In this document: piece by piece, positions 1-46,176 of the stretch | Numbering within the stretch: position 1 is the first letter of the stretch | Layout of the letters: every line of letters begins with the position of its first letter | NCBI GenBank assembly: GCA_021825445.1 | Contig: JAKAHA010000007.1 | Coordinates: forward strand, 1 to 46,176 | Direction of reading: 5' to 3' | Source: a bacterium | GTDB lineage: Bacteria; Patescibacteriota; Microgenomatia; UBA1406; GWC2-37-13 | Length of the DNA: 46,176 bases | Notes under the pieces: generated by a model | What the model was told of the DNA's origin: nothing | The model's database searches: none | Seen by the model: only the letters and a program-made list of their open reading frames with translations | Translations under genes and position numbers: made by a program

Positions 1-134
1 ACCAATTACCAATCGAATCAAAATTAAAAACCGTTTGGTCTATTGATTTTTGAATATTGATATTTGTTTGTTTCTTGGTATTTGGTCATTGGTTATTATT
101 TAGTAATTAGGTTAATTAAGTCAATTTCTAATCA
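1..134. repeat. R1 long palindromic repeat, copy A (cut by window edge)
   Basis: Nearly identical to the distal part of the copy at 1892-2092, in the same orientation, and an inverted match to those at 2711-2894 and 3352-3540. It shares the central AAAAACCGTTTGGTCTATTG core and the terminal TTAGTAATTAG. It abuts the 3' end of pilB. The left part lies outside the window. Confidence 0.85.
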
Positions 135-1841
135 TCATGTTTCTGCAACTCTAAGGACTTCCTCCATCGTCGTTACGCCATCAAGAACTTTTAAATAACC
201 GTCTTCTATCATCTTAACAAATCCTTCTTTTTTTGCGGTTGCCTCAATCACTTCTGAGGAATCTTGATGTAGTATATGTTGGTTTATCGCTGTGGTCACT
301 TTAAGTATTTCAAAAATAGCAATTCTTCCAAGATATCCAGACTTGTTGCATTCCTGGCAACCGGCACCTTTGCTCAAGGTAATGGGGGAGTTATCATATT
401 TTTTTGGAAAAATTGGTCCCAATACCGCACGAATATTGGCGCCTACTTCATCAGATGCTTTATAAGTAACCTTACAATAAGGACAAATTTTTCGTGCAAT
501 TCTTTGAGCTAGAATAGCAGTCAAAACAGATGCGATCAAAAACGATTCGGCACCCAAATCAATTAAACGTGGAATTGCGGTTGCGGCGTTATTTGTGTGA
601 AGAGTGGAAAAAACCAAATGACCAGTCAATGCTGCTTGAATTGCCAGTTGCGTCGTCTCCTTATCTCTTACCTCTCCAACCAGAATAATATTTGGATCCT
701 GACGCAAAAAAGCCCTAAGACCTGTTGCAAACGTAAGACCAGCTTGGGCATTAACTTGAACTTGGTTAATGCCTGCAATTTGGTATTCGACAGGATCCTC
801 GAGAGTCACAATATTAACCGTTGGCTTGTTGAGTCTTGATAAAATAGAATAAAGAGTTGTTGTCTTTCCACTTCCAGTAGGTCCTGTAATCAAAATAATA
901 CCATATGGTCTTGAAATCGATTCTTCCAACTCTTTTAACTGTGGACCACCGAACCCTAGCTCGGAAAGAGTCGGAATACCGCCAGTTTTTTTCAGTAATC
1001 TCATGACGACCTTTTCTCCAAAAACAGTTGGAAGTGTTGACACACGCAGATCAACCTCATCTTTGGCAGATTTGTAAGTAAAACGTCCATCTTGGGGAAT
1101 TCTTTTTTCGTCAATTTTCATCTCAGAAAGGATTTTTATCCTTGAAACAAGTGCCTCATGAATTGTCCTGGGGAGTGATAATTTTTCTTGCAGTATTCCA
1201 TCGATTCGGTAACGAACTTTGGTACGGGTCTCTTCTGGTTCAATATGGATATCAGAAGCTCTCCCTTTGACTGAAAATTCCAAAATTGTGGAAACTATTT
1301 TTGCAATTGGTGCTTGCTGTAGTTGGATATTACTATTGTTAGTTTCCTTTTTTTGGTCTGGTGAATATTCTTTTAGGGCATCACGTACCTCAGGTGACAA
1401 ACCTTGACTAAAAGAAAGGTCGATCATCTTTAGAATCTGATCTCGATCGGCAAGTGACAAATTTATTTTTTTACCTGTTTTCTTTTCCAAAAAATCAACA
1501 ATTGAACGGTTAAAAGGATCCTCGGTCGCAATTGAGATTGCGGAATTTGCTGAATCAAAATGATAGGGGATTATCGTATATCGACGAGAGATGGACTCCG
1601 AAATCAAGCCTACCGCCTGGGAATCGATCGGGGTTTTGTCTAAATCAACATAAGAAATTTTTTCAACCTCTGCTTGGGCTCTGATAATTTCGATCTTATC
1701 GATATTTGTAAATTTTCTTAGATATTCAATAATTGGAATATTTTTTTGTAGACTAGACACCTCAAATTGACTAGCTTCAGTATCTGTAATTTGATTGTTT
1801 TTTACCAATTGATCAAGTAATACTTTTGGAGTTATGCTCAT
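135..1841 (-). CDS. pilB: Type IV pilus assembly ATPase PilB (GspE/PilB family)
   Basis: Hexameric cytoplasmic ATPase that powers pilus extension. The 568 residues have family order: an N-terminal GspE-II/MshEN-like domain (about 1-150), then the ATPase core with Walker A GPTGSGKTTT (320-329), Asp box TLEDPVEY (346-353), Walker B ILVGEVRD (386-393) and the following His-box region (about 408-420). A zinc-binding CPYC (453-456) and CQEC (495-498) pair is complete, as in PilB and unlike PilT. Length is typical. It is transcribed toward the left window edge, and R1 repeats lie on both sides, so it is physically separated from the pilMNO operon by the repeats and prepilins. PilC and PilT are not visible. 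The motifs leave little doubt about family; extension ATPase rather than type II secretion ATPase is inferred from the pilM/N/O neighbours. Confidence 0.95.
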   Translation of the reverse strand: MSITPKVLLDQLVKNNQITDTEASQFEVSSLQKNIPIIEYLRKFTNIDKIEIIRAQAEVEKISYVDLDKTPIDSQAVGLISESISRRYTIIPYHFDSANSAISIATEDPFNRSIVDFLEKKTGKKINLSLADRDQILKMIDLSFSQGLSPEVRDALKEYSPDQKKETNNSNIQLQQAPIAKIVSTILEFSVKGRASDIHIEPEETRTKVRYRIDGILQEKLSLPRTIHEALVSRIKILSEMKIDEKRIPQDGRFTYKSAKDEVDLRVSTLPTVFGEKVVMRLLKKTGGIPTLSELGFGGPQLKELEESISRPYGIILITGPTGSGKTTTLYSILSRLNKPTVNIVTLEDPVEYQIAGINQVQVNAQAGLTFATGLRAFLRQDPNIILVGEVRDKETTQLAIQAALTGHLVFSTLHTNNAATAIPRLIDLGAESFLIASVLTAILAQRIARKICPYCKVTYKASDEVGANIRAVLGPIFPKKYDNSPITLSKGAGCQECNKSGYLGRIAIFEILKVTTAINQHILHQDSSEVIEATAKKEGFVKMIEDGYLKVLDGVTTMEEVLRVAET

Positions 1842-1891
1842 AATTTAAATATACATAAAAATTATGCTAGAATGCAAGAAGATAGACTAAA

Positions 1892-2092
1892 AAATTACTA
1901 ATTTCTAATTACCTAATTTCTAATAAAATCCCAATAACCAAATTTCAAGTATTCCAAGCAATAACCAATTACCAATCGAATCAAAATTAAAAACCGTTTG
2001 GTCTATTGATTTTTGAATATTGATATTTGTTTGTTTCTTGGTATTTGGTCATTGGTTATTATTTAGTAATTAGATTAATTAGGTCAATTTTT
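1892..2092. repeat. R1 long palindromic repeat, copy B
   Basis: An AT-rich element of about 200 bp filling the gap between the divergent pilB and holB-like genes. Its right part matches copy A in the same orientation, and the whole matches copies C and D inverted. The two ends carry related CTAATT-type motifs in opposite orientation, so single strands could fold into one long imperfect hairpin. It ends 2 bp before the holB-like ATG, so any promoter must lie inside the repeat. Confidence 0.85.
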
Positions 2093-2094
2093 AT

Positions 2095-2715
2095 ATGATT
2101 CCTCTACTAATTCTTTCTAAAAATCCAAAACTCATCAAAAAATATATCGACGATCTTAAAATTGACTCCCTTTTTTTTGAAATTAACCCCGAGGAAAAAG
2201 AATATTCCATCAACGACATAAAAAATTTAATTAAAGAAACTAGTATCTTTAATCCAAAAACTCGCATTTATTTTCTTGAAAATTTCCATAATTCATCGAT
2301 ACCTGCTCAAAATTCGTTTTTAAAACTTCTTGAAGAGCCACCATCCAACGTCCAATTTGTATTGACGACAGATAATAAAAATAGTTTATTACCAACAATT
2401 ATTTCCAGGGTTAAAATTGTGAAATTACAAACAAATAAAATGGATGATATTGTTGATAAATTTGATTTCGACGTTACAAAAATACCATTATCATCATTTA
2501 AAATCACCGATAAAGAATCGGCTAAAAAAATTCTTTTAAATTTAATAATGTTTTTTAGAGAACGATTGGAATCTGATAAAAAAGCACCTTTGATCATCAA
2601 GGAAATTCTTCGTCTGAACAGTTTACTTGAAACTAATAATTTAAACCCTCAACTAACCGTCGACCAGGGGTTGATATTTATTTGGAAAAGATATAGTATA
2701 AATAAATTGACCTAA
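2095..2715 (+). CDS. holB: DNA polymerase III delta'-like clamp-loader subunit, short form
   Basis: The 206-residue product carries the delta'/DnaX core stretch NSFLKLLEEPPSNVQF followed by ISRVKIVKL. This corresponds to the sensor-1/SRC-like region of the clamp-loader AAA+ fold. It lacks the usual N-terminal P-loop segment and most of the collar domain; typical HolB is about 300-330 residues. It probably serves as a non-catalytic clamp-loader subunit with DnaX. It is bracketed by R1 copies B and C in opposite orientation, so it has no operon partner. The start at 2095 sits right after the repeat, with no evident Shine-Dalgarno. A truncated gene is possible, but the reading frame is clean and short delta' proteins are plausible in reduced genomes. 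Confidence 0.75.
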   Translation: MIPLLILSKNPKLIKKYIDDLKIDSLFFEINPEEKEYSINDIKNLIKETSIFNPKTRIYFLENFHNSSIPAQNSFLKLLEEPPSNVQFVLTTDNKNSLLPTIISRVKIVKLQTNKMDDIVDKFDFDVTKIPLSSFKITDKESAKKILLNLIMFFRERLESDKKAPLIIKEILRLNSLLETNNLNPQLTVDQGLIFIWKRYSINKLT

Positions 2716-2894
2716 TTAATCTAATTACTAAATAATAACCAATGACCAAATACCAAGAAACAAACAAATATCAATATTCAAAAATCAATAGACCAAACGG
2801 TTTTTAATTTTGATTCTATTGGTAATTGGTTATTGTTTGGAATATTTGGAATTTGGTTATTGGGATTTTATTAGAAATTAGGTAATTAGAAATT
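2711..2894. repeat. R1 long palindromic repeat, copy C
   Basis: About 184 bp, in inverse orientation to copies A and B and nearly identical to copy D. It overlaps the last codon and stop of the holB-like gene and ends immediately at the ATG of the first prepilin gene. It contains GACCAAACGGTTTTTAATTT at its centre and AATTAGGTAATTAGAAATT at its right end. Confidence 0.9.
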
Positions 2895-3341
2895 ATGAAG
2901 CATGGTTTTACCCTCATCGAGCTTCTTGTCGTCATTGCCATCATCGGTAGTCTTTCGGCATTGTTTTTACCAAACTTTATGGCTGTGCGCGAGCGAGCCC
3001 GCGATACCCAACGTAAATCGGACTTAAAGCAAATTCAAAAAGCTTTTGAACTTTACAGGCAGGACCAAACAGATTCATCTTTTCCAACATCATTGCCAAC
3101 CATTGGTGAATGCTGGTCGAGCTTGGCTGGTTGTACTGGTAATGTTTATGCTGGTAAATTTCCGGGAGATCCAAACAGGACTGATAACAGTGGAGCCTAT
3201 TATTACTCACAAACTAGTTCTACAACTTATGTTTTGTGTAGTTGTCTCGAAAATAAGGCAGATCCTGACGGAACATCTGGCAATTGTGATGCCAGTTATA
3301 CTTGTACCAGCGGAAAAAGTTATTCAGTTAATCAACCATAA
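2895..3341 (+). CDS. Type IV prepilin-like protein (pseudopilin 1)
   Basis: The 148-residue protein begins [18 protein letters not shown], a class III signal peptide. Prepilin peptidase would cut after Gly4, leaving Phe1 and Glu5 of the mature N-terminal helix. The rest is a globular domain with the pseudopilin motif [21 protein letters not shown] and several Cys residues near the C-terminus that may form disulfides. It is likely an assembled pilin or minor pilin outside the cytoplasmic membrane. R1 repeats flank it on both sides in the same orientation, so it is a separate unit from the next five prepilin genes. Which prepilin is the major pilin cannot be told from sequence. Confidence 0.9.
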
Positions 3342-3351
3342 AGTTATAAAT

Positions 3352-3540
3352 TGACCTAATTAATCTAATTACTAAATAATAACCAATGACCAAATACCAA
3401 GAAACAAACAAATATCAATATTCAAAAATCAATAGACCAAACGGTTTTTAATTTTGATTCTATTGGTAATTGGTTATTGTTTGGAATACTTGGAATTTGG
3501 TTATTGGGATTTTATTAGAAATTAGGTAATTAGAAATTAA
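3352..3540. repeat. R1 long palindromic repeat, copy D
   Basis: Nearly identical to copy C and in the same orientation, so prepilin gene 1 sits between direct repeats. It fills almost the whole gap between the first and second prepilin genes. A leader or promoter for the downstream prepilin run would have to lie in or just after it. Confidence 0.9.
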
Positions 3541-8552: not shown

Positions 8553-8639
8553 ATCATTAAAAATTTCTAATATCTAATTACTAATTTCTAAACTAAGTTA
8601 AATTATAACATTAAAAAATTAAATTTGTATGCATTTGTA

Positions 8640-9420: not shown

Positions 9421-9545
9421 AATACTACCAATACTACAAATAATCAAATACTACAAATAAATGAAAAACAAAATAACCAAATGATTTGATTATTTGTTTA
9501 TTTGATTATTTATTTATAGTATTTGTCGGATTGGTAGTATTTGTA
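9421..9545. repeat. Long inverted repeat between nusB and rnc
   Basis: The left arm AATACTACCAATACTACAAA and the right arm ending GGTAGTATTTGTAGTATT are complementary over about 40 bp with a few mismatches, around an AT-rich loop. The right arm encodes the NusB C-terminus; the left arm covers the region upstream of the rnc start. Confidence 0.85.
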
Positions 9546-9886: not shown

Positions 9887-9895
9887 AATAACGCT

Positions 9896-9990
9896 TAGAA
9901 TCAGTCGGAGTCGGTCAAGTCAGTCGAGTCGGTTGAATCAGCAAAATAAATACTGATTTAACCGATTTAACCGATTAAACTGATTTAACT
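9896..9990. repeat. Imperfect inverted repeat between rpmF and nusB
   Basis: The left arm has repeated GTCGG/GTCAG motifs ending GTCGGTTGAATCAG; the right arm begins CTGATTTAACCGATTTAACC. The arms pair imperfectly around a short AT-rich loop. It fills most of the gap between nusB and rpmF and would be transcribed in the nusB leader. Confidence 0.75.
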
Positions 9991-9997
9991 AATTTAA

Positions 9998-10147: not shown

Positions 10148-10206
10148 ATACAAAAATTTCTAATTTCTAATTAACTAATTTCTAATATTATCATATAAAA
10201 TATCTA

Positions 10207-32297: not shown

Positions 32298-32843
32298 ATG
32301 ATGATCACAGGCGGAATTTTAATTCTTTTGGTTGTTTATTTGGTTGCTCAATATAACGGTTTTGTAATGTTAAAAACCCGAATTCAGGAAGCACTATCTG
32401 GTATTGATGTCCAGCTTAAAAGACGAGCTGATTTGATCCCAAATGTCGTTGAAACTGTAAAAGGTTATGCCAAACATGAAAAGGGAGTTTTTACGGAAGT
32501 TACCAAAGCTCGAACCGCTTTAATGGGAGCAAAATCTCCCGGCGAAAAAGCTGAGGCTAATAATATGCTAAGCGATGCATTGAAGTCTTTATTTGCAGTT
32601 GCTGAGGCTTATCCAGACTTAAAAGCTAATACGAATTTTCAGGATTTGCAAAGACAACTTGAGGATACTGAAGATAAAGTTGCCTATTCCCGACAGTTTT
32701 ACAATTCAAATGTTCTTGACTTTAATACTAAAGTACAAATGTTTCCATCGAATTTGATCGCAAATATCTTTGCTTTCAAAGCCTTTGAATTTTTTGAAGC
32801 TGAAGAAGAAGCGAAGAAAAGCATTAAAGTCAAGTTTGACTAA
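32298..32843 (+). CDS. lemA: LemA family protein
   Basis: 181 residues from ATG 32298 (an adjacent ATG at 32301 is equally possible; an in-frame TTG at 32286 is less likely). One N-terminal membrane helix, then the LemA core: [41 protein letters not shown] and a long helical region ending [20 protein letters not shown]. Family members face the outside as helical bundles and often sit next to htpX, as here. Role unclear; probably membrane stress or protein quality control. Confidence 0.93.
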
Positions 32844-32844
32844 A

Positions 32845-32953
32845 TCACTAATTACTAATTTCTAATTGATCTAAGGAAATACCAATGACTAATTGGTTAG
32901 TTTGGAATTTATTTAGAAATTAGGTTAATTAGATCAATTAGGTCAATTTTAAA
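32845..32953. repeat. Short, divergent R1 repeat, copy F
   Basis: About 110 bp with the R1 ends (CTAATTACTAATTTCTAATT at the left, AATTAGATCAATTAGGTCAA at the right) but with the centre shortened to ACCAATGACTAATTGG. It fills the gap between lemA and htpX and ends 1 bp before the htpX start. Confidence 0.7.
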
Positions 32954-46097: not shown

Positions 46098-46098
<1 letters not shown>

Positions 46099-46176
46099 AT
46101 TGACCTAATTAATCTAATTTCTAAAAAATAACCAATAACCAAATAACAAGAAACAAACAAATATCAACGTTCAATT
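46098..46176. repeat. R1 long palindromic repeat, copy E (cut by window edge)
   Basis: Begins AATTGACCTAATTAATCTAA right after the atpD stop, with AAGAAACAAACAAATATCAA, in the same orientation as copies C and D. It is slightly diverged and truncated by the window end. Confidence 0.85.

Follow-up and report, generated by a model that had tools for sequence, protein, structure and literature searches.

The window, meaning the whole stretch of 46,176 nucleotides analyzed here, is contig C33 of G000, a 33-contig, 1.02-Mb CPR genome; all genomes used were draft MAGs, with genes predicted by a simple purpose-built caller. The window holds a set of imperfect palindromes, here termed R1, and every copy listed in a first-pass annotation was recovered in its place. 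Copy A (1-130, plus strand) belongs to a long-form element that the contig end interrupts, and only the Y half of that element is in the window. It is 98% identical to copy B; the corresponding X half closes contig C11 (C11:26487-26617), and C11 and C33 are adjacent in the relative G008. Copy B (1892-2092, plus strand), in the long form, lies between divergent pilB-like and holB-like genes. Copy C (2705-2894, minus strand), also long, lies between the holB-like gene, whose stop codon it supplies, and prepilin 1, and the long copy D (3348-3539, minus strand) lies between prepilin 1 and prepilin 2. Copy E (32843-32949, plus strand), in the short form, is placed between two genes, and copy F (46098-46176, minus strand), a Y half following atpD, is cut by the contig end and has 78 bp in common with an element at C2:37391. 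Lone X arms occur at 8559-8592 and 10152-10187, both on the plus strand.

The copies form closely matched pairs, as had been proposed: C and D are a direct pair with 99% identity, 644 bp apart, while B is inverted relative to C (97% identity over about 200 nt) and likewise to D (97%). That such pairs drive inversion, a further proposal, is only suggested. In G000, an atpC segment (C2:37391-41309, with window 46098-46176) lies between inverted long elements and apart from atpD, unlike in G002, relative to which it is inverted; this arrangement could be a real inversion or a misassembly at the repeat. The unit size had been put at about 185 bp. A long form of 185 to 200 bp does exist and is a recently spread subtype, but it is in the minority, the usual R1 measuring about 105 to 150 bp.

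Other repeats are present as well. Palindromes of different families (AAATAATCAAATACTAC and AGTCGGTCAAGTCAG types) lie at 9432-9505 and 9887-9997 of the window, and 9-bp units (GACTAATTN, ATTGGACCA, and the like) form arrays at about 20939, 22320, and 25485, at C7:8528-9094 of G000, and at L302:14560-14780, some of them in coding frame and one inside an IVP-like gene. REP-type repeats of the form GTCATCCCCGCG...GGGGATCCA were seen at L029 (C19), L290:13199, L293:5237, and L298:11982; one lies next to an X arm, in the reading frame of a DUF359 gene.

Arm structure and distribution of R1

The outer arms of R1 are short tandem arrays, typically of four CTAATT hexamers each, separated by spacers of 1 to 3 nt and repeating every 7 to 9 bp. 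The pattern CTAATT-N(1-4)-CTAATT-N(1-4)-CTAA gave 190 matches in G000 (101 + 89) and none in a reversed control, and R1 is therefore not a product of chance. A BLAST search with R1 returned 59 matches in G000, and 35 two-armed copies were counted in the 412 kb of this genome that were read. The spacer vocabulary is small (T, A, AC, GAC, AAC, GAT, AAT, and ATT) and differs between the ends. At the X end, the outermost spacers are nearly always T, followed by T or A; at the Y end, they are GAC, AAC, or GAT, followed by AAC, GAT, or AAT, so that the element has a direction. Inward of the outer arms lie AAAATAACCAATAACCAA-like inner arms and then a variable loop. Spacers of equal rank in the X and Y arms differ in both length and sequence and are thus unable to pair, indicating that the hexamer array, and not base pairing, is conserved. 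Hexamers conserved in this manner point to the array itself as what may be recognized. The arms also mix 7- and 9-bp units, and they do not align as one fixed structure.

The family proved far larger than the first-pass annotation had noted and is not confined to this genome. CTAATT arrays were found in 27 of 57 relatives and in 110 of 380 genomes of the phylum (CPR), with few control matches in any genome. The relatives with an identical arm grammar are CPR (Patescibacteria) bacteria.

Gene junctions and turnover of sites

The sampled part of G000 is 91% coding, and in it R1 copies are located between protein genes or within them. Nearly every copy fills an intergenic gap, each of its two ends lying no more than about 20 bp from a start or stop codon. 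This bears out the earlier description of copies that begin at or inside stop codons and finish 0 to 14 bp ahead of starts, and several G000 genes now take their stop codon from R1. Pieces of the element also occur in frame. An R1-like core lengthens the GTPase-domain loop of lepA, before DTPGHVDF, by about 35 amino acids, and an X arm is in frame in a DUF359 gene. Across the genus, six genomes have an empty or nearly empty lepA loop, and nine have an insert there. These inserts are mostly palindromic and belong to different families; examples are those of G010 (AGTATCC arms), G005 (GTTAACG arms), and G019 (a REP type). A derivation of the arms from neighboring host sequence, hinted at by lepA in G002 and G010, was considered and discarded as a general cause, as the families recur at unlinked sites.

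Orthologous sites in related genomes were compared, and empty ones exist. The pilB-holB gap that holds copy B contains a CATTGTTT palindrome in G008 and no insert in G015 and other genomes. The copy C site, between holB and the prepilin gene, carries a short R1 in G008, G015, and G006 and is empty in G014, G009, G010, and G004. At the copy D site, in the prepilin gap, a short R1 is present in G008 and G015, other palindromes are present in G014, G009, and G010, and nothing is found in G004 and G003. The atpD-atpC gap is empty in 8 of 17 genomes, the remainder holding several different inserts, and the site at C2:20293 is empty in G002 and G016. R1 is thus neither restricted to this genome nor fixed at the same sites everywhere; copies in other genomes occupy different sites, and R1 sites turn over fast in the genus. 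Among 117 syntenic gene pairs, the long gaps of G000 and of its relatives coincide (odds ratio, 11.4; P = 2e-8), so that the same permissive slots are refilled repeatedly. Existing copies are probably replaced too, since G000 holds the long form where relatives hold the short form. At copies C and D, the long form may have been acquired by conversion of an old site, without any new insertion, gene conversion and transposition being inseparable at old sites. No clear target duplication was seen between filled and empty sites, which share about 75 to 80% DNA identity and have ambiguous AT-rich flanks.

IVP genes and their arms

Elements with the same ends as R1 can contain a gene. By inspection of array pairs, X...Y pairs spaced 420 to 490 bp apart were collected among the matches listed, and all five enclose one open reading frame (ORF) of about 120 amino acids. 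The five CTAATT elements come from four genomes (G289, with two, and G112, G247, and G049) belonging to four CPR families, and every enclosed ORF matches PF05635 (23S_rRNA_IVP) above the curated cutoff. Both of the two ORFs run against NCBIfam are TIGR02436 four-helix-bundle proteins, and the closest solved structure for the one enclosed IVP that was searched is 2rld. The protein is also known as S23 and is related to the Avd protein of diversity-generating retroelements. The full element of about 420 to 490 bp therefore has the order arm X, IVP ORF, arm Y. The R1 inner consensus is matched beside the arms, on at least one side, in three of the five elements (P ≤ 0.013), including both G289 elements, which match on both sides (P ≤ 0.0015); the G247 element is weak in this respect, and the G112 element does not match. 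In the elements that match, the motif ANAATGNCYAATNACC contains the IVP start codon. R1 retains the CTAATT arms and some adjoining inner sequence but not the gene, and given the matching arms and inner sequence, it looks like an IVP element minus its gene.

In the part of the host genome that was read (roughly 40%), no IVP with CTAATT arms turned up, and among the 57 relatives, G049 alone has one among the matches listed. PF05635 is absent from 13 of the 57 relatives (among the matches listed), and all 13 have 0 or 1 CTAATT arrays. At C11:1993-2238 of G000 (L288), X and Y arms surround a 52-amino-acid ORF that is not an IVP and is perhaps a host gene caught between arms.

Enclosure by inverted arrays is a general property of IVP genes. 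At an alignment score of at least 30, 81% of 70 IVP genes sampled from genus to class lie inside inverted short-repeat arrays, compared with 5.6% of 630 other genes (odds ratio, 75; P = 2e-46), and several of the top-scoring control genes happen to sit between two R1 copies. The repeat unit varies among IVP genes (AAAGTYTAT, GTTAACG, AGTATTA, GATTTAA, TAGATGC, ATTGTTTC, and others), and it follows the IVP subfamily, even across taxonomic families. Arms were shared in 37 of 54 IVP pairs at 55% identity or above, whereas permutations gave at most 10. Between GTDB families, they were shared in 9 of 13 pairs at 55 to 75% identity versus 1 of 482 pairs below 45%. This test used aligned arms only and left out the five CTAATT loci, which had been chosen for their arms. 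An earlier arm/IVP correlation, based on 110-bp windows and contaminated by a shared promoter-like motif, was null below 50% identity. Within G000, ATTGTTTC arms flank the IVP gene at C9:22010 and are also found in gene-less palindromes elsewhere in the genome; in G005, GTTAACG arms surround an IVP gene as well as forming part of the lepA insert. Outside the CPR, one Sulfurovum IVP gene (L114), whose protein is distant, lies inside AATTTCT arrays; this case neither supports nor contradicts the subfamily rule.

Two further observations concern nearby sequences. A partly palindromic motif, TTGTAGGTTATAAGCGRTTGACA (also TTGTAGCATATAGTCCATTGACA), beside a TTGACA box is repeatedly found upstream of RAYT and IVP genes and of one HTH-type gene (L094-L113, which are RAYT loci; L292:1850-2000; L290 near 9094; L296; and L286:17250). 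In several genus members, a gene of 146 to 147 amino acids has inverted ATCGATTAATCGAT-type repeats on both sides (L286:17369, L320, L325, and L289:372).

Origin of R1 and its relation to known elements

Collectively, we consider it probable that R1 derives from IVP elements as a MITE-like form without the gene. The first-pass annotation had raised MITE-like elements as one option, and the data support it: copies are dispersed and nearly identical, some orthologous sites are empty, the ends are directional, and versions with the same ends carry a gene. The IVP would recognize its own arm array, either as DNA or as a hairpin, and new copies would enter AT-rich intergenic gaps, and sometimes genes in frame, through host replication or repair or the action of another partner. 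Recombination between shared arms may later replace older copies with more successful versions, and in a genome with so little noncoding DNA, only inserts at junctions or in frame would survive. Several points stand against this derivation: the IVP is not known to have a catalytic activity that could account for strand transfer, the part of G000 that was read showed no CTAATT-armed IVP, no clear target duplication was seen, copies C and D may reflect conversion of old sites, and copy number within the genus tracks the RAYT count (rho = 0.70) better than the IVP count (rho = 0.38).

The correlation with RAYT count raises the alternative that R1 is a REP/REPIN-like element mobilized in trans by the RAYT genes of the genome (Y1 transposase, TnpA_REP). 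Three Y1_Tnp genes are present in G000, and genomes lacking Y1_Tnp genes have 0 or 1 CTAATT arrays, as this explanation would have it. We nevertheless regard it as unlikely, since the inspected RAYT genes (20 RAYT-region loci) adjoin G+C-rich REPs of their own and not CTAATT arms, the partial correlation over all relatives is weak for RAYT once IVP is taken into account (0.15, versus 0.49 for IVP), and the genes enclosed by CTAATT arms are IVP genes. With different REPs beside them, RAYTs are no obvious partner or mover of R1, although the correlation within the genus keeps them a rival candidate. Palindromes could also form in place, by slippage and template switching at AT-rich gene junctions, and spread between sites by gene conversion, with the IVP as cargo or a bystander. 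Arms built as short tandem arrays with variable unit number, different palindromes at the same sites in related species, and the replacement of the short form by the long form at copies C and D would all fit such a process. However, the directional ends are common to several CPR families, near-identical copies lie at unlinked sites, the arm unit is tied to the IVP subfamily across families, and the site of copy B is empty or holds another family in relatives, and we give formation in place little credence.

A regulatory RNA or DNA element (a terminator, processing site, or promoter) kept for gene expression would explain why R1 is placed at gene ends and has hairpins predicted to be stable, and RNase III is known to cut the hairpins of rRNA intervening sequences (IVSs) (PMC4990558). 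We consider this explanation very improbable. Orientation relative to codirectional genes (16 versus 9) is random, and divergent, convergent, and tandem gaps are all occupied; the same junctions in relatives lacking R1 have only a few base pairs there; and copies occur in frame inside genes. The suggestion that R1 carries promoters is not supported, given the random orientation, the few base pairs at those junctions in relatives, and the absence in G000 of a Shine-Dalgarno signal above background that could be lost. Such motifs occur upstream of 5.5% of G000 genes, compared with 7.6% inside genes (sampled 412 kb), and at 1 of 22 R1 ends, so an R1 copy abutting a start codon need not do harm. 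RNA structure, also proposed at first, is not supported as what is conserved: the arm spacers do not pair, differing as they do in length and sequence, and an Rfam search with R1 matched no family.

As a derivative of IVP elements, R1 has its closest counterpart in the 23S rRNA IVSs of Leptospira, Coxiella, and Brucella. The two share the PF05635 protein (S23/IVP) in their gene-bearing forms, a similar size (428 nt in Coxiella), terminal inverted repeats, and shorter forms lacking the ORF. Unlike the rRNA IVSs, R1 and its IVP relatives lie at junctions of protein genes or inside them, have arms that are tandem arrays with a subfamily-specific unit, and reach tens of gene-less copies per genome. 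Rickettsia palindromic elements (RPEs) are palindromes of about 100 to 150 bp in a reduced genome, some of them in frame inside conserved protein genes. R1-related pieces in lepA and the DUF359 gene resemble them in this, while R1, to our knowledge unrelated to RPEs in sequence, lies mostly at gene junctions and has gene-bearing relatives with the same ends. With MITEs, R1 shares its short, nonautonomous form, inverted ends, many copies, and empty orthologous sites, although its gene-bearing partner encodes an IVP and not a recognized transposase. REP/REPIN sequences are likewise intergenic, high-copy palindromes in genomes with RAYTs, but the RAYTs here adjoin other, G+C-rich REPs, and R1 does not flank the gene at the 20 RAYT-region loci inspected.

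Intervening sequences in rRNA genes that carry the S23 ORF are known as selfish elements of unclear origin, and S23, for which no function is known, assembles as a homopentamer of four-helix bundles (PMC4990558). In 1993, the ORF was proposed to take part in IVS mobility (PMC4990558), and we found no demonstration since; some 30 years on, both function and origin are still called unclear (PMC4990558). IVP ORFs have been noted in rRNA insertions of CPR bacteria (PMC11270868). We found no report in the open-access literature of non-rRNA IVP genes in cognate tandem-repeat arms or of dispersed gene-less derivatives.

More broadly, it is possible, though we put it forward tentatively, that a widespread class of mobile elements lacks a recognized transposase and has IVP four-helix-bundle proteins as its mobility factors, each IVP subfamily recognizing its own tandem-repeat arms and spreading both itself and gene-less palindromes, with 23S rRNA IVSs, in-frame protein inserts, and CPR junction palindromes all as products of this class. 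Because the arm unit goes with the IVP subfamily, the old idea of a mobile element can be tested directly. Derivation from IVP elements would explain the origin of inserts in ribosomal genes, at gene junctions, and even in proteins, and it accounts for a good part of the noncoding DNA in reduced CPR genomes. It also carries a warning that segments of CPR proteins encoded by palindromes, the LepA loop among them, are debris of mobile elements, and it offers, beside RPEs, another route to new protein segments.
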